This document shows positions 12,105 to 18,749 of a DNA stretch of 64,000 bases, piece by piece. Origin of the DNA: Synechococcus sp. HK01-R (GTDB lineage Bacteria > Cyanobacteriota > Cyanobacteriia > PCC-6307 > Cyanobiaceae). The DNA lies in NCBI RefSeq assembly GCF_014217855.1, contig NZ_CP059059.1:1488001-1552000 (forward strand), written 5' to 3'. The position numbers were made by a program, and so were the translations under genes. Within the stretch, counting starts at the first letter, position 1, and the number at the start of each line of letters is the position of its first letter. The notes beneath the pieces were generated by a model. That model saw nothing but the letters and a program-made list of their open reading frames with translations. It was not told the DNA's origin and searched no databases.

Positions 12105-12464
12105 GTGGCTGGCTTGCAGATCTGGAGCTACTCAAAATGCTCCACCTGTCGCAAAGCCCTGGCTTGGCTTGATCAGCGGGGTATTGCCTACGAGTGCGTC
12201 GATATCACCGTCAACCCACCCGAACGCGACAGGTTGGTCCGAGCCTTCCAGCACTTCGGTCGCCTTCAGCCGCTTTTTAACACAAGCGGTCAGAGCTACA
12301 GGGCCCTGGGAGCTGCCGCTGTCAAAGCCATGACGCCTGAGCAGGCTCTTGATGCTCTGGCCGCAGACGGAAAGCTGATTAAGCGTCCCTTCCTTGAGAG
12401 CGGAGACGGCGCTTTCCTCGTTGGATTCAACGAGGCCGTATGGAGCGAGACGTTTCAGGGTTGA
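12105..12464 (+). CDS. ArsC/Spx-family thioredoxin-fold protein
   Basis: 119 residues from a GTG start at 12105. It has the ArsC/Spx/YffB fold with a CXXC pair at Cys12 and Cys15 (SKCSTCRKALAWL) instead of the single active-site Cys of glutaredoxin-linked arsenate reductase. The C-terminal LIKRPFLESGDGAFLVGFNE matches the family's conserved RP motif. The CXXC favours a Spx- or YffB-like redox role over arsenate reduction, but this cannot be settled from sequence. Its last 38 bases overlap the convergent membrane-protein gene. Confidence 0.85.
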   Translation: MAGLQIWSYSKCSTCRKALAWLDQRGIAYECVDITVNPPERDRLVRAFQHFGRLQPLFNTSGQSYRALGAAAVKAMTPEQALDALAADGKLIKRPFLESGDGAFLVGFNEAVWSETFQG

Positions 12465-13932
12465 AGCTGAGGCCATCCAGTTCGGTGATCAGCTCATCGA
12501 CGCCACCCTGGTCGCGGAGTTGCACGACACTGTTGCGCTTGAACTCTTCCAGGAACGAAGCCACCAGTTCCTGGCTGCGTTCCAGAACCGGACCTTGTTC
12601 CAGCGTGCGGGCCAGTTCCTCCCAGAAGCGATCGAAGGCCTTGATGGTCAGCTCCTCCATCTGTGCGTCTTTGCGGCCCAGGCGCTGACCGGTCTGCCGG
12701 GAGAGATCCAGAAAGGCATCCACCATTCCTGCTGCGAGTTGGCGGCTGATCCCGCTCTCTGCTTGCTGCACGGCAGCCAGCTCACGCAGCGGAGAGGGCA
12801 CCATCACATCATTCATGCTGCGCTGCAAGGCATGGCCGAAGAGGGCGATCAGCTGTGGGCGCATGCCAGGTCCGACCTGGGTGAGCATCAGGGGGGCCCA
12901 GAGCCGCACCAGTTCCGCAAGCTCTCGTTCGCCGTTCTCTTCCACGGACTGGTGACTGCAGAGTCCTCGGATCCGCTGAGGCAGCCGTGGTGATCGGATC
13001 AGTCCCTGGAGAGCATCGAGGATTCGCAGGGTGAGGACTTCAAACAGTTCCAGGGCCAGCACGGCGACCACCGCACGGCTCACCGCTGTGCGCAGGGGCT
13101 CCAGCTGGATGAGGCCGCTGCTCGAGAGCCGCTCGGTCACCGGAAGAATCCGCAGCAGGCGCCAGAAGGGCAGAAGCAAAGGCAGGTCAATCCAGCGTCT
13201 CAGCAACGCATCTCTCCAGTGGATCGCTGGATAGCGCCGTTTGAGCCGTACCGCACGGATGAGGATGTCGAGCAGGAACAGCACCTGAAAAGGGGTGTCG
13301 ATCCTCCAGGCGTGATCGATCGGCTGGCCGTTCTCGTCAATTCCCCGCCAATAATTGGTTGCGGCCAGGGGAAGGACGCGGGTGTTCCAGAAGGCACGCT
13401 CTCTCTCCCAGTCGCTCAGCTTGAGATAGGAATCGCTCAGCAGTCGTGCGGCGGCTTGTTTCGCTGAATCGAGGCCGGCGCGAGCCCTCAGATGGTTTTT
13501 CAGCTTCTCGAGCGTTCCTGCATTGCCCGATCCGATGAATGGGTTCTCATCGATCAGCTGGCTGTTGCGGACCACCATCTCCAGGCGCAGCTGTCGAGCC
13601 GCCGCGCTTTGGATCCCCTGCGACTCCGCAACCCGCTCCAACTGACGGAACTGGGAGATGAAGGCCTGCGTGTCCCGGTGGGGTTCGATGCCCTTCACCC
13701 GGTCATAGGTCGGAGTGATGTCAGGCAGCCAGGGCAGGGGCAGGGCCAGGTTCACCGATGGCAGGGGGTACAGGGTCCGCTGTTGCCAGAAGGTGCGCAG
13801 TGGCACATAGGTCACATCGAAGACCACCCAGGCCAAGTTGGCGGTCGCCACCAGTGCGATCAGTCGGTCCCAGCGCAGCCAGAAGCGGCCGGTGGCTGTG
13901 GGTTGCAACGCTTGCCAGCGGGGACGGACCAT
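12427..13932 (-). CDS. Conserved cyanobacterial membrane protein, unknown function
   Basis: 501 residues. Hydrophobic segments lie near residues 24-42 (DRLIALVATANLAWVVFDV), 218-232 (FQVLFLLDILIRAV), 250-272 (IDLPLLLPFWRLLRILPV) and 288-305. The last ~190 residues are soluble and helical. The stretch from the second to the third segment, with an Asp near the end of one helix and regularly placed Arg in the next (LLLPFWRLLRIL), faintly resembles the S3-S4 region of voltage-gated ion channels, but no pore helix or selectivity filter is visible. I know of no function. It is divergent from lepB, with 80 bases between. Confidence 0.7.
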   Translation of the reverse strand: MVRPRWQALQPTATGRFWLRWDRLIALVATANLAWVVFDVTYVPLRTFWQQRTLYPLPSVNLALPLPWLPDITPTYDRVKGIEPHRDTQAFISQFRQLERVAESQGIQSAAARQLRLEMVVRNSQLIDENPFIGSGNAGTLEKLKNHLRARAGLDSAKQAAARLLSDSYLKLSDWERERAFWNTRVLPLAATNYWRGIDENGQPIDHAWRIDTPFQVLFLLDILIRAVRLKRRYPAIHWRDALLRRWIDLPLLLPFWRLLRILPVTERLSSSGLIQLEPLRTAVSRAVVAVLALELFEVLTLRILDALQGLIRSPRLPQRIRGLCSHQSVEENGERELAELVRLWAPLMLTQVGPGMRPQLIALFGHALQRSMNDVMVPSPLRELAAVQQAESGISRQLAAGMVDAFLDLSRQTGQRLGRKDAQMEELTIKAFDRFWEELARTLEQGPVLERSQELVASFLEEFKRNSVVQLRDQGGVDELITELDGLSFNPETSRSIRPR

Positions 13933-14012: not shown

Positions 14013-14726
14013 TTGGCTGACGAGCAGAGGGATCCAGAGCTTCAGGCGCAGCCCGATGCCAAGTCGGAGGCCAAGAAGAGCAACACCCATCCCTTCTGGG
14101 ATTTCTGGGGGCCGGTGCTGTTCACCGTTGCTCTTTATCTAGGCATCAGGCACTACGTGGCTGAAGCCCGCTTCATTCCCTCGGGCTCCATGCTGCCAGG
14201 GCTCCAGATTCAGGATCGGCTCTTGGTGGAGAAGCTCACCTACCGCCGCCGATCCCCCCGTCGTGGCGAGATCGTCGTGTTCCACTCGCCCTATGCCTTC
14301 GACCCTGTCCTCAAGTCCAACGCCTCTCCATCCGGCTTGCGTTGCGCCCTGGCCAACCTGCCTCTCGTCGGCTTGATTCCCGGGGTCGGCGATGTGGCCT
14401 GTGACGCCTACATCAAGCGAGTGGTTGCCGTGGCAGGTGATCAGGTGGTGGTGAACCCCCGCGGGCAAGTGAGCGTCAATGGTGAAGCGGTATCAGAGCC
14501 CTATGTGAGCCATGACTGCCCGCTGGACGAGCAGGGAATGAGCCGTTGCCGCACCCTCAATGTGACCGTGCCGAAGGGGCATGTGCTTGTGCTTGGGGAT
14601 AACCGCCGCAACAGCTGGGATGGCCGCTACTGGCCCGGTGGCCCTTTTCTGCCTGAAAAGGAGATCCTTGGGCGGGCGGTCTGGAGGTTCTGGCCCCTCA
14701 ATCGCACCGGTTCCCTGGGCTCCTGA
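14013..14726 (+). CDS. lepB: Signal peptidase I
   Basis: 237 residues from a TTG start at 14013. Type I signal peptidase cleaves Sec/Tat signal peptides at the membrane. One N-terminal transmembrane helix (PVLFTVALYLGIRHYV, residues 34-49) precedes the catalytic serine box FIPSGSMLP (nucleophile Ser59) and the catalytic lysine Lys135 in DAYIKRVVAVAGD. The conserved box GDNRRNSWDGRYW lies near residue 196. The start codon is unusual, but the frame closes upstream and MADEQRDPEL is the only sensible N-terminus. Its 3' end overlaps the convergent dihydroorotase-like gene. Confidence 0.94.
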   Translation: MADEQRDPELQAQPDAKSEAKKSNTHPFWDFWGPVLFTVALYLGIRHYVAEARFIPSGSMLPGLQIQDRLLVEKLTYRRRSPRRGEIVVFHSPYAFDPVLKSNASPSGLRCALANLPLVGLIPGVGDVACDAYIKRVVAVAGDQVVVNPRGQVSVNGEAVSEPYVSHDCPLDEQGMSRCRTLNVTVPKGHVLVLGDNRRNSWDGRYWPGGPFLPEKEILGRAVWRFWPLNRTGSLGS

Positions 14727-15975
14727 GGCCTGAGCTGGTCACCCGACCCTGAAGCATCAAACCCTGCCAGGGCTGATTGGCAGCTCGGGGTTGATCAGGG
14801 TCTCGGCGATCCATGCGCCAGCTGTGCTCCGGATCAAACAGGAGCCAGCGTCTGCTGCCAGTTTCCAGGCGCTCCTCCGGCCGGCCAAGAAGGCGTGAGG
14901 GGCCAAAGCTCAGCACCTCCCAGAGCTGACGGATCGTCCAGCCCCGTTCCAGCACAAGGGTTTGCCAGAGCGCAGGCAGCACCAGCTGATGACCGGCCAG
15001 GCCTCGTTTTCGCTGGTCCGGCGGGAGCAGGCAGTCCTCCTCGTCGATCGGCACCGCATGCACCGCCACGGCCTGAATCACGCCGGACCCTAGGGCTTGG
15101 ATCAGGGCCTCCCGGTCCTCCGGGGCACCGAGGGATGGGGTCACGCTCCAACCCATCTCGGTGGGGCTCAGCCGGCTGTGGTCGCTGACCAGATGCCACC
15201 AGCAAACACTCGCCTGCGGGCGGACGCTCGCAGCGGCAAGCTGGCTGACGGCCGCGGCGGTGGAGAGATTCATCAGCCGAAGCCGCCGCTGTGGAAACTG
15301 GCGCTGAAGGTCTAGCAGCTGTCCGAGCGGCAGCGTTTCGCTGGCGACAGGGTCAGGCGTCCATCCGGCCCGCAGGGTGGCGACCCCCTCTCGCACCAGG
15401 CCATCACCCTGGATGCCGGGATCGCGGGGTGCCAACAGGACTGGCGCTTCACCCATTTCACCAAGCACGAGTGCCCGCTGCAGCAGAGCGATCGGCGGGC
15501 AGGCATCGTCTTCGGCGAGACCGCATGCACCCTGATCCAGCAGGTCGCCGTGGGCTGAAAGCTGCTCTCCACGGCCCTCGAGGCTGAAGCCACCCCACAG
15601 GTGCACTCGCACATCGCTGTCCTCCCCGGCAAATCCCTGCAGGCGCTCCACCCGGTCGCGCCACGAGTTGGCTCTGGGCAGCAGCGCCACCTGGCCGTAG
15701 CCCGCTCGGGCGGCGGCATGGCGCAGGCTCAGGAGCGTCTCGGCCGCTCCTGAGAAGGGGCGATCCAGCACCGAATGGGGGTCCACAAGGCAGGGGGCCA
15801 GGATCTGGCTCGGCCTTGGATCGGGCGCCACTCCGAGCGTGGAAGCCTGTTGCCGAGCCTCGTCATCGAAGGCCACGAGAACGCCGTCCTGGATCAGTGC
15901 GGCGCCACCATCATTGGGCTCCCGGTCACGACTGATCAGGAGCCGGACGGGATCCAGCAACAGGGTCTGGCGCAT
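14698..15975 (-). CDS. Dihydroorotase-like protein lacking metal ligands (pseudo-enzyme)
   Basis: 425 residues aligning end to end with the type I dihydroorotase/amidohydrolase family. The metal-binding DxHxHxR box is DPHSVLD here (residues 65-71), so the second His and the Arg are lost. The C-terminal DHAPH catalytic box reads VHAVP (305-309), so the catalytic Asp is lost too. Framework segments are retained (AAETLLSLRHAAARAGYG, and GLAGHQLVLPALWQ for the usual GxxGLETxLPL). It cannot be an active zinc hydrolase as written. In other bacteria inactive PyrC paralogues serve as structural partners of aspartate transcarbamoylase (PyrB); that role is inference here. It lies four bases downstream of the mutase gene on the same strand. 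Confidence 0.8.
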   Translation of the reverse strand: MRQTLLLDPVRLLISRDREPNDGGAALIQDGVLVAFDDEARQQASTLGVAPDPRPSQILAPCLVDPHSVLDRPFSGAAETLLSLRHAAARAGYGQVALLPRANSWRDRVERLQGFAGEDSDVRVHLWGGFSLEGRGEQLSAHGDLLDQGACGLAEDDACPPIALLQRALVLGEMGEAPVLLAPRDPGIQGDGLVREGVATLRAGWTPDPVASETLPLGQLLDLQRQFPQRRLRLMNLSTAAAVSQLAAASVRPQASVCWWHLVSDHSRLSPTEMGWSVTPSLGAPEDREALIQALGSGVIQAVAVHAVPIDEEDCLLPPDQRKRGLAGHQLVLPALWQTLVLERGWTIRQLWEVLSFGPSRLLGRPEERLETGSRRWLLFDPEHSWRMDRRDPDQPRAANQPWQGLMLQGRVTSSGLRSPGNRCD

Positions 15976-15979
15976 CAGC

Positions 15980-17308
15980 TCAGAGGGCTCCGGCGGCGGT
16001 GCGATCGAGAACGCCTCCCAGGTGGGAGGTGAGATTGAGGCAGGTCACCACTGCAGGCTGGCCCGGATCGACCGGCATGTCGACCACGGTCACACCACCG
16101 TTGCCCTGTTTCACCGCCCAAATGTCCCCGGGGCTGAGGCCGAGCAGCTGGCAGAGAATGGTTTTGTTGACCGCGTCATGGGCAACCACAAGGGCGGTCT
16201 CCTCAGGCTCGAGGCTGTCGGCGATGGTGGACCAGGTGTTGACGGAGCGATCCCAAACGTTCTGGATTGTTTCCCCCTCCGGCATCTGAACCGTTTCCGG
16301 CGTGCGCTTCCACTCCTCGAGAAGAGCACCCCACTCCGCCTGGATTTCGGCTTCCAGCTTGCCCTCCCAGAGCCCATGGCCGATCTCCACCAGGCCGCGG
16401 GTCACGGTGAGGGGTACACCTGGATGGGAGCGCAGGATGCCCTCTGCGGTCTGACGGGGTCTGGACATCGAACTGCTGTAGGCCCTCTGCAGAGAGACGT
16501 CAGCAAGGAAGGCCCTGGCGGCCTCTGCCTGGGCGTGACCGTTCTGGTTGAGGGGGATGTCGATCTGTCCCTGGAAGCGACCCTCTCGGTTCCAATGGGT
16601 TTCTCCGTGGCGAACCAGGATGAGGCGGGCGCCCTTGCCCTTCGCCGGCAGGGCCTGGCCGAGGTGGGAGGTGTTGTTGAGGCATTCGATCTGCACCTGA
16701 TGGCCATCGGCCTTTGGCGTGAGGTTGAACACCGACAGGGAGGCATTGTCGATCTGAAGGCGTCGGAATCCCCGCTCCGGTTCCCCCAGGAGCACCAGGA
16801 TCAGGCAGCGCAGGATCGCGTTGTGCCCCACCACGAGAACGGTTTCGTTCCCATCCACCGGGTGCTTCTCGAGCAGTCGGGTCAGGAAGTGGCGGGCCTG
16901 CTCCATTAATTCGGGCACAGGCCGGTAGCGACTGCCGTCCTTGCGGGTGAGTTCCAGTGTTTCTGGGTGCAGGCGCCAAGCGCTGTAGGCCTCTGGATCT
17001 CTGGCAGCCCGCTCATCGGCCGTGAGACCACTCCAGGGCTCCAGGTCCACCTCCAGCAATCCCTCATCCAGCACAGGTTGGAGATCACCGCCCTTCGCGG
17101 CGAGCAGGCCTGCGGTGGTGGCTGCCGCTCGCTGGAGCGGGGAGCTGTAGACCGCATCGATCGGCACCTCCTGGAGAGCTTCGCCGGTCCGTCTCGCCTG
17201 CGCTTCCCCCTCGTTGGTGAGCTTGGACAGATCATCCCGTCCCTGGATCCGGCGTTCCACGTTGAAGCTGCTCAGGCCATGGCGAACGAGGAGAAGTCGC
17301 AGAGACAC
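15980..17308 (-). CDS. Tandem two-domain phosphoglycerate mutase-like protein
   Basis: 442 residues from a GTG at 17308, which gives VSLRLLLVRHG; the frame stays open further upstream but that part is low-complexity and antisense to the protease gene. Two complete histidine-phosphatase domains are present. The first has LLVRHG with catalytic His10 and a second His in VVGHNA. The second has LILVRHGETHWN with His234 and VVAHDAVNK. Each domain ends with a similar C-terminal motif (CLNNTSHLG and CLNLTSHLGG), so the whole unit was duplicated. It could be a cofactor-dependent mutase or a phosphatase such as a PSP- or CobC-like enzyme; sequence alone does not decide. Confidence 0.85.
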   Translation of the reverse strand: MSLRLLLVRHGLSSFNVERRIQGRDDLSKLTNEGEAQARRTGEALQEVPIDAVYSSPLQRAAATTAGLLAAKGGDLQPVLDEGLLEVDLEPWSGLTADERAARDPEAYSAWRLHPETLELTRKDGSRYRPVPELMEQARHFLTRLLEKHPVDGNETVLVVGHNAILRCLILVLLGEPERGFRRLQIDNASLSVFNLTPKADGHQVQIECLNNTSHLGQALPAKGKGARLILVRHGETHWNREGRFQGQIDIPLNQNGHAQAEAARAFLADVSLQRAYSSSMSRPRQTAEGILRSHPGVPLTVTRGLVEIGHGLWEGKLEAEIQAEWGALLEEWKRTPETVQMPEGETIQNVWDRSVNTWSTIADSLEPEETALVVAHDAVNKTILCQLLGLSPGDIWAVKQGNGGVTVVDMPVDPGQPAVVTCLNLTSHLGGVLDRTAAGAL

Positions 17309-17348: not shown

Positions 17349-18749
17349 GTGAGAATCAGTGCCAGTCGCCGCCGGCCGTTGACCACGCCCCCGCTCGGAC
17401 GCACCACTCCCGTCAAGGGATTCCTGGCCGTTCTCTCTCTGCTTTTGGCAGTGACCGTGTGGGTGGTGGGCCTGTTGGATAGTCTCAGTCGCCCCTCAGT
17501 GGCGCCGGCCCTGTCCCTCCAGCAGCAGGAGATGGCTTTGCTGGCCGGATCCGCCTTGCCGGATCCGCTGCGCTCCCTCTTGGTCGGCAGCGATCCGGCG
17601 GCCACCCTTCGGGATGCTCTAAGAGAGATCCCTCTCGATCGACTGGACGATCGGCAGCGTCTTTTGCTGGCGTCCCTTGAGGCTGACTCAGACAAACGGC
17701 GACTTGTGCTGGCACCACCGCTCGGCAGTCCTGACCTGCAACCACTGCAGCGGGCTCTGGTGGATGACACGCAGTCCGCACAGTTGTCGGTGTCGGAGCG
17801 AGATCTCCTTGCGGACCCCAAGGCCGATCCACTCCTGCGGGAGTTGAGTTGTCTGGCGCTTGGTGGCACCACCGTTGATTGTCGGCAGCAGGCCATCGCC
17901 AGGGCCGTCGCCCGTCGTCTGGTCCTAGCGGAATTGCTGCCCTTGCTCGCTCTGGTGCTTGGTGCCGGCCTGCTGCTGCGTCATCTGTGGCTGCTCTGGC
18001 GGGGGGGGATCAACCCTTGGCCAATGCTCACGGCTCCGCCTCTGACGCTCGTTGACATGGTGCTCCTGGTGGCGGGTGGTTTCGTCGTGCTCGGGGAGGT
18101 GCTTCTGCCCCTGGTGGTGAGTCCGGTGACGGCGGCGCTGTCGCGGGGGTTGGCTCCTCCCCTCAGTCAGGCGGTGTCGGTGCTGTTGGGTTACGCCGCC
18201 CTGGCCCTGCCTCCTTTGGTGATCATCCGCCAGCAGCTCAAGGGTGTGGACCCGGCCACGAGGCCGGAGTTTGGTTGGCTGCAGTGGCGCCTCCGTCCTG
18301 CGGGGACGTCCGTGATCCAGGGGGGACGGGCCTGGCTCATGGTGATGCCACCGGTGGTGTTCACGGGTTGGCTGATGGGGCGTCTTCTCGGCGATCAGGG
18401 GGGCAGCAATCCCCTGCTCGAACTTGTGCTGCGCAGCCAGGATCCGCTTGCGCTGATCTTGCTGGCCACCACGGCCATCGTGCTGGCTCCGCTGTTTGAG
18501 GAGACCGTCTTCCGGGGGGTGCTGCTGCCGGTGCTTGTGCGTTATCTCGGCCGCGGCTGGGGTGTGTTTCTCAGCGGTCTTGTTTTTGCAGTTGCGCATC
18601 TGAGCATCGGGGAGTTGCCACCATTGCTCGTACTTGGTCTGGGGTTGGCGTTGCTGCGTCTCAGCAGCGGTCGTCTGTTGCCCTGTGTGGTCATGCACGC
18701 CTTCTGGAACGGCGCCACTTTCCTCAATCTGATCCTGCTGGGTGGCTAG
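17349..18749 (+). CDS. CPBP-family intramembrane metalloprotease
   Basis: 466 residues from a GTG at 17349, 40 bases from the divergent mutase start; longer readings from 17214 are antisense to that gene. An N-terminal membrane anchor (residues ~24-44) is followed by a soluble region of about 150 residues and then six or more hydrophobic helices. The CPBP/CAAX-protease motifs are EETVFRG (Glu384, Glu385, Arg389), FAVAHLS (His417) and HAFWNGATF (His450, Asn454). Cyanobacteria carry several such proteases with unknown substrates; the plant homologues are chloroplast proteins. Confidence 0.9.
   Translation: MRISASRRRPLTTPPLGRTTPVKGFLAVLSLLLAVTVWVVGLLDSLSRPSVAPALSLQQQEMALLAGSALPDPLRSLLVGSDPAATLRDALREIPLDRLDDRQRLLLASLEADSDKRRLVLAPPLGSPDLQPLQRALVDDTQSAQLSVSERDLLADPKADPLLRELSCLALGGTTVDCRQQAIARAVARRLVLAELLPLLALVLGAGLLLRHLWLLWRGGINPWPMLTAPPLTLVDMVLLVAGGFVVLGEVLLPLVVSPVTAALSRGLAPPLSQAVSVLLGYAALALPPLVIIRQQLKGVDPATRPEFGWLQWRLRPAGTSVIQGGRAWLMVMPPVVFTGWLMGRLLGDQGGSNPLLELVLRSQDPLALILLATTAIVLAPLFEETVFRGVLLPVLVRYLGRGWGVFLSGLVFAVAHLSIGELPPLLVLGLGLALLRLSSGRLLPCVVMHAFWNGATFLNLILLGG

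Follow-up and report, generated by a model that had tools for sequence, protein, structure and literature searches.

A dihydroorotase homologue with a degraded catalytic site, retained across the Cyanobacteriia, is probably a subunit of aspartate transcarbamoylase

Our analysis revealed a probable class-wide pseudoenzyme, currently labelled as a dihydroorotase, whose gene (here called pyrC') is kept by selection while another protein carries the dihydroorotase motifs. We suggest, with a probability of roughly two in three, that PyrC' (equivalent to PyrX, or pDHO) is the non-catalytic subunit of an aspartate transcarbamoylase (ATCase) of the class A2 type. The copy from which the analysis started lies in the window, that is, the whole stretch of 64,000 nucleotides that was analysed, which corresponds to C1:1488001-1552000 of the single-contig genome (2,479,154 bases) of Synechococcus sp. 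HK01-R. The features to which we refer are the following, in window positions:

14698..15975, minus strand: pyrC' (425 aa, ATG start), whose product is homologous to class I dihydroorotases but has no catalytic site
15763..15783, minus strand: DPHSVLD replacing DxHxHxR, box 1 (the first His remains, the second His and the Arg are gone)
15421..15432, minus strand: APRD replacing the H(A/S)ED motif (Ala at the His180 position)
15262..15273, minus strand: MNLS replacing xHIS (Asn at the His232 position)
15049..15063, minus strand: VHAVP replacing DHAPH (His at the position of the catalytic Asp305)
15980..17305, minus strand: gpmB-like two-domain histidine-phosphatase gene, on the same strand, 4 nt upstream of pyrC'
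14013..14726, plus strand: convergent lepB gene for signal peptidase I; the 3' ends of lepB and pyrC' overlap by 29 nt

The open reading frame of the gpmB-like gene extends to position 17896, the domains of its product begin near residue 198, and the best NCBIfam match of this product is PspA. A further open reading frame of 501 aa (12427-13932, minus strand) has no NCBIfam match at 1e-5, and its homologues stand beside lepB in 13 of the 15 loci read in the family of the window (hereafter f1). The distribution of the genes was analysed in a phylum sample of 291 genomes with the profiles NF005614 (PyrC'), TIGR00670 (PyrB), TIGR00856 (class II PyrC) and NF005751 (PRK07575); 142 of these genomes were assigned to the class of the window, which we take to be Cyanobacteriia, 37 of them belonging to f1 and 105 to other families.

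The relatives of the window protein in the PDB, by sequence, are class I dihydroorotases, and its best family match is the NCBIfam equivalog NF005614 (PRK07369, "dihydroorotase"), although the score falls below the cut-off (6e-74, 249 bits against 456); the match to TIGR00857 is likewise below its cut-off (2e-37, 129 bits against 279), and no Pfam family was matched. The AlphaFold model, computed from residue 2 onwards together with 52 relatives, reached a pLDDT of 88.2 and a pTM of 0.90. It matches the Aquifex dihydroorotase in its complex with ATCase (Z 43.7 for 3d6n and 43.8 for 4bjh, over 401-402 residues) and, at tied scores, 2z00 (Z 44.1) and 3mpg (Z 43.5), in agreement with Foldseek, while the entries of the free Aquifex subunit are placed lower (Z 37.9-38.9 over 348-356 residues). 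The window protein is predicted to keep the full-length class I dihydroorotase fold; the first-pass annotation of this DNA had proposed that the framework of the fold was kept, and a model of this confidence, with Z values of about 44 to solved dihydroorotases, supports that view.

What the protein seems to have lost is the active site. Both replacements on which the first-pass annotation was based, DPHSVLD for DxHxHxR and VHAVP for DHAPH, are present in the sequence, and outside them Ala and Asn stand in place of His180 and His232, respectively (Aquifex numbering, from the available text of PMC3880350). According to the same text, the Aquifex dihydroorotase is active and binds zinc through His61, His63 and Asp153; a second site is formed by His180 and His232, with Asp305 nearby, and the replacement of this second-site His pair with Ala costs little activity. 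We compared 83 copies from the class, 43 of f1 (28 from the genus of the window and 15 others) and 40 of other families, with a reference set of 18 motif-intact class I sequences and six proteobacterial dead copies. All 28 full-length copies of the genus (the cut copy L032 being excluded) retain the first His of box 1 and have lost the second His, the Arg, His180, His232 and Asp305. The same picture emerges in f1 as a whole, where the first His is found in 43/43 copies, the second in 0/43 and Asp305 in 0/43 (H in 35, Q in 5, N in 3). Box 1 of the other families shows the reverse, the first His being kept in 1/40 copies (Tyr in 39) and the second in 30/40, and Asp305 is kept there in 39/40. The box-1 Arg, His180 and His232 are kept by none of the 83 copies, the corresponding figures in the motif-intact set being 18/18, 18/18 and 17/18 (the eighteenth sequence is gapped); the last His of DHAPH is lost in 81 of the 83 copies (kept in 0/43 of f1 and 2/40 of the others), and L101 (from G156) is the only one of the 83 to keep both His of box 1. 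Since the second-site His are largely dispensable in Aquifex, the argument for inactivity outside f1 rests on the first His of box 1, the Arg and the last His, and thus on fewer residues, given that the catalytic Asp is mostly kept there. The case for inactivity is stronger in f1 than outside it, and the replacements suggest that the window protein lacks a working active site and has lost its activity. The cut-off of NF005614 is exceeded in 104 of the 291 phylum genomes, every one of them outside f1, and the 40 class copies that we read outside f1 are without the catalytic set, so that the name "dihydroorotase" given to this family looks wrong. It is also worth considering that ten positions, although rare in the 18 motif-intact sequences, are fixed in both cyanobacterial groups (at least 95% in each). 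Four of them are Trp (127, 259, 337 and 352, residue 1 being the Met), found in 83/83 class copies, in 0/18 motif-intact sequences and in 0/6 proteobacterial dead copies; these positions look like a new constraint rather than mere remnants.

If PyrC' does not catalyse the reaction, another protein should do so, and the expectation of the first-pass annotation that an active pyrC and a pyrB would be found elsewhere in the genome was borne out: the window genome harbors a motif-intact class II PyrC (447 bits; motifs DDWHVHLRDG, KLYPANAT and DSAPH), and PyrB is present as well. Class II PyrC or PRK07575 scored above cut-off in 140 of the 142 class genomes, without an internal stop in 136. Class II PyrC was above cut-off in 37/37 f1 genomes and PRK07575 in 0/37; outside f1, PRK07575 is the only one of the two in 82 of the 105 genomes and class II PyrC in 19, two genomes (G216 and G268) have class II PyrC together with a PRK07575 gene broken by stops, and two (G152 and G262) have neither. 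PRK07575 is the usual dihydroorotase of the class. Internal stops interrupt it in four of the 82 genomes (three stops in G205, one each in G132, G167 and G041), and G083 and G301 carry PRK07575 fragments with stops besides a class II PyrC. In G216, G268, G205, G083 and G301, four of which also carry class II PyrC, this stopped or fragmented state of PRK07575 can be read as a gene replacement caught in progress, in which the working dihydroorotase is swapped, the old one then decays and PyrC' persists. That the working enzyme is swapped while PyrC' persists argues that PyrC' is retained for a purpose other than catalysis, whichever type of dihydroorotase the genome has.

In three genomes (G152, G262 and G205) a search with TIGR00857 found no uninterrupted dihydroorotase except PyrC'; all three are rated 99% complete, G262 being assembled in two contigs. 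This finding, for G262 and G152, might be taken to mean that PyrC' is still a dihydroorotase working without the usual metal site, as the available text of PMC2770081 reports for a Zur-linked PyrC paralogue of Pseudomonas that is active without the zinc residues, and the frequent retention of the catalytic Asp and of the second His of box 1 outside f1 points in the same direction. We consider it very improbable: none of the 43 f1 copies has the catalytic Asp, the Arg or the last His of DHAPH, and the presence of class II PyrC in every f1 genome implies that a dihydroorotase activity of PyrC' is not needed in this family.

The genes for PyrC' and PRK07575 lie no more than about 2 kb apart in six genomes (G063, G035, G156, G279, G305 and G150), with lepB-like frames between them in G156, and this nearness perhaps represents an old gene order. 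As regards PyrB, the best match is weak in G081, G083, G089, G122, G187 and G295 (about 1e-67 to 1e-69, with three matches each) and much stronger in the other class genomes outside f1; an insertion (intein or intron) in pyrB of these six genomes is possible. PyrI (PF01948) was not found in the window genome (G000), and the same search found it in 7 of 14 control genomes, so that the window genome is without the regulatory chain by which class B ATCases are recognised.

The distribution of the gene and the substitutions that it has accumulated speak for a function. A PyrC' match was obtained in 105/105 class genomes outside f1 and in 26/37 of f1, and the 11 f1 genomes of the phylum sample without it all belong to one genus, g2. 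In the genus of the window the gene is present in 29/31 genomes, and in 24/24 of those that are at least 90% complete; none of the 29 copies has an internal stop. The dN/dS values (Nei-Gojobori, pairs with dS 0.05-1.5) have a median of 0.161 and a range of 0.093-0.318 (72 pairs, 28 copies), compared with medians of 0.078 for lepB (69 pairs, 27 copies) and 0.098 for gpmB (135 pairs, 28 copies). PyrC' is under purifying selection, weaker than that acting on its two neighbours, and the relaxed selection that would have spoken against the first reading of this gene is not seen, all 72 pairs being well under 1. It is true that a functionless, decaying relic would be expected to evolve faster than its neighbours, as PyrC' does, to be deleted in some genomes and to be broken in others, as it is in the assemblies of 3 of the 105 genomes outside f1 (one TAA in G126, one TGA in G212, two frames in G087). 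Nevertheless, with dN/dS far below 1, stop-free copies throughout the genus, and the predicted fold and the four Trp retained across the class, there is scarcely any likelihood that PyrC' is such a relic. In another f1 genus, g131, the PyrC' matches fall into two to three pieces in all seven genomes (G509-G515), which may reflect a split or an interruption of the gene. A scan of viral contigs, aimed at close relatives only, yielded no relative of the window protein.

A second line of evidence comes from the relatives of PyrC'. Six proteobacterial homologues, drawn from plasmid collection records and none of them from Pseudomonas, have lost the box-1 motif (Methylobacterium, Sinorhizobium, Azospirillum, Ruegeria, Sphingomonas and Acinetobacter), and a PyrB frame lies upstream in 6/6: it overlaps by 4 nt in Sinorhizobium and Sphingomonas, stands at most 30 nt away in Azospirillum and Acinetobacter, and about 0.65 kb away in Ruegeria (with one gene between) and Methylobacterium. 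The 13 copies from other classes of the cyanobacterial phylum (f31 and f36, probably non-photosynthetic) keep instead HxHxR and His180 (13/13) as well as His232 and DHAPH (12/12, L094 being cut), and in the 11 f31 genomes with both positions listed, no more than about 60 nt separate the dihydroorotase gene from pyrB. In a tree of 37 rows built after removing the catalytic columns (19 cyanobacterial, 4 proteobacterial dead and 14 motif-intact), one branch separates the cyanobacterial and proteobacterial dead copies from the motif-intact ones (96/90), and the same split was recovered with all 48 rows (SH-aLRT 92). One ancient loss shared with Proteobacteria is favoured by these trees, not proved, and fast-evolving dead copies may attract each other. 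The alternative origin, that is, a loss within the phylum from a motif-intact, pyrB-linked copy like those of the other classes, appears disfavoured by the tree, though the constraint joining cyanobacterial and other-class copies in one clade was not rejected (p-AU 0.128; 0.089 with f36 alone). The PyrB tree has long branches and gave no decision on co-inheritance.

The organization of the window locus itself speaks against the proposed role, pyrB being unlinked (C1:1104916-1105908, about 397 kb from pyrC' at C1:1502698-1503975) and gpmB linked. A gpmB gene was found upstream on the same strand in 15/15 f1 loci (3-kb flanks read) and, in the class loci outside f1, in 20/30 with 1.5-kb flanks and 5/11 with flanks of about 3 kb, while it was absent from the flanks read in the remaining 16 of these 41 loci. 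We also asked how near to each other pyrC' and pyrB lie in 44 genomes of the class (14 families) that consist of few contigs and carry the two genes on the same one: in four families the distance is at most 60 kb, where 1.23 would be expected (P 0.025), but P is 0.13 for a limit of 30 kb and 0.11 for one of 100 kb, and we regard this as no result. Nor did the covariation of rates provide a signal specific to PyrB: in the genome pairs with a readable GpmB of more than 250 aa as a control (30/39), GpmB performed equally well or better, the partial r of the PyrC' protein distances being 0.57-0.85 with GpmB and 0.18-0.66 with PyrB. Linkage and correlated distances are what one would expect if the dead fold served another partner, most plausibly the upstream GpmB-like phosphatase, which it would regulate or scaffold in a role that has nothing to do with pyrimidines. 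We judge this unlikely, in view of the 16 loci without a visible gpmB and of what happens to GpmB when pyrC' is lost.

Such a loss has occurred within f1. A family-wide search found the gene in 189 of 271 genomes, all 34 genera having at least one member with it; of the 82 genomes without it, the 20 listed all belong to g2, and a few of the other 62 may be g4. The g2 genomes measure 1.4-1.7 Mb, and nine of them keep the gene. In 6/6 lacking g2 genomes that were read, lepB and gpmB are separated by a gap of about 60 nt with no remnant found between them, and the gpmB frame is open in all six; in 2/2 keepers that were read, PyrC' stands between the two genes. All 24 g2 genomes searched, 8 of them keepers and 16 lackers, retain PyrB, which implies that PyrB cannot need PyrC' everywhere. 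In the PyrB tree the nine keepers form one group (support 0.84) and 22 lackers another (support 0.39), so that a single loss would suffice within g2. In one set of 16 genomes, the same for all four genes and with a single keeper (G236), the lacking/keeping rate ratio was 2.45 for PyrB (bootstrap 1.25-4.78), 0.80 for LepB (0.18-1.84), 0.91 for GpmB (0.45-1.71) and 1.44 for class II PyrC (0.85-2.83), and with all rows it was 1.68, 1.46, 1.06 and 1.59, respectively. The ratio of PyrB is the largest of the four in both sets, not clearly separated from the others, and GpmB shows no shift, its rate being unchanged after the loss. Moreover, of 122 PyrB sites that are invariant in 15 f1 genomes and the nine g2 keepers, 6 differ in every one of the 22 lackers; the reverse comparison gives 3 of 118. 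The dN/dS of PyrB among the lackers shows no increase (0.074 versus 0.103 in keepers). A PyrB rate shift following the loss of PyrC' is no more than suggestive, being a single event with overlapping intervals.

Returning to the ATCase subunit, the reading that we prefer, PyrC' dimers would bridge PyrB trimers and would stabilise the active PyrB trimer, as published for Pseudomonas aeruginosa. In that organism the ATCase chain by itself is described as an inactive monomer, which becomes active only in the dodecamer that it forms with pDHO (available text of PMC7053772). In Sinorhizobium meliloti, smc01361 adjoins pyrB, its disruption makes the cells auxotrophic for pyrimidines, and its product is proposed to be an inactive dihydroorotase on which PyrB depends (available text of PMC5929573). 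On the grounds of kinship and anatomy, the window gene would most simply encode the same kind of subunit as pDHO/PyrX; its PyrB-holding role is suggested by its kinship with the proteobacterial pseudo-dihydroorotases, and PyrB binding, PyrB dependence and stoichiometry would, by analogy, apply to the window protein.

The kind of system that we propose is already known, and what is notable is that it extends over the whole class, that the working enzyme has been exchanged around PyrC' and that close relatives have lost PyrC' cleanly. Labedan et al. (2004) reportedly classified ATCase quaternary types and may already list cyanobacteria; no earlier report of a cyanobacterial pseudo-dihydroorotase was evident in the openly licensed literature searched. 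Our results suggest that the NF005614 family in cyanobacteria is a pseudoenzyme, in which case pathway models counting it as a dihydroorotase would be wrong. They also describe, on the scale of a phylum, how a dead enzyme is retained, probably in a structural role; since some close relatives have deleted it naturally, its effect on ATCase is testable across sister lineages with and without it. One may speculate further that nearly all oxygenic bacteria assemble their ATCase around a dead dihydroorotase that goes back to a single ancient loss common to them and the Proteobacteria, and that a streamlined marine lineage broke this dependence by a clean deletion between lepB and gpmB while PyrB changed; this wider scenario is tentative, and the odds are somewhat against it as a whole.

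The closest known counterpart is the pDHO of class A2 ATCase (P. aeruginosa and P. putida), which shares with the window protein the class I fold, the lost zinc and substrate residues and the presence of an active dihydroorotase elsewhere; the lack of PyrI in the window genome fits the same type. Unlike the Pseudomonas gene, the window gene lies behind gpmB and not beside pyrB, and some genomes of its family are without it; in addition, the four invariant Trp of the window type were not seen in the six proteobacterial copies, none of which is from Pseudomonas. The S. meliloti gene L296, presumably smc01361 (the proposed PyrX), is homologous, lies beside pyrB and has lost the box-1 motif (DARVFVGEP); it shows about 34% identity to a cyanobacterial copy and, unlike the window gene, overlaps pyrB by 4 nt. 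The dodecamer of dihydroorotase and ATCase of Aquifex aeolicus (3d6n, 4bjh) contains a subunit with the same fold as that of the window protein, but the Aquifex dihydroorotase is, according to the available text of PMC3880350, active. Finally, the fungal pseudo-dihydroorotase domain of CAD-like proteins is, according to the available text of PMC7053772, a dead dihydroorotase kept with ATCase, as we propose here, with the difference that it is a domain within one long chain, whereas the window protein is a separate protein.
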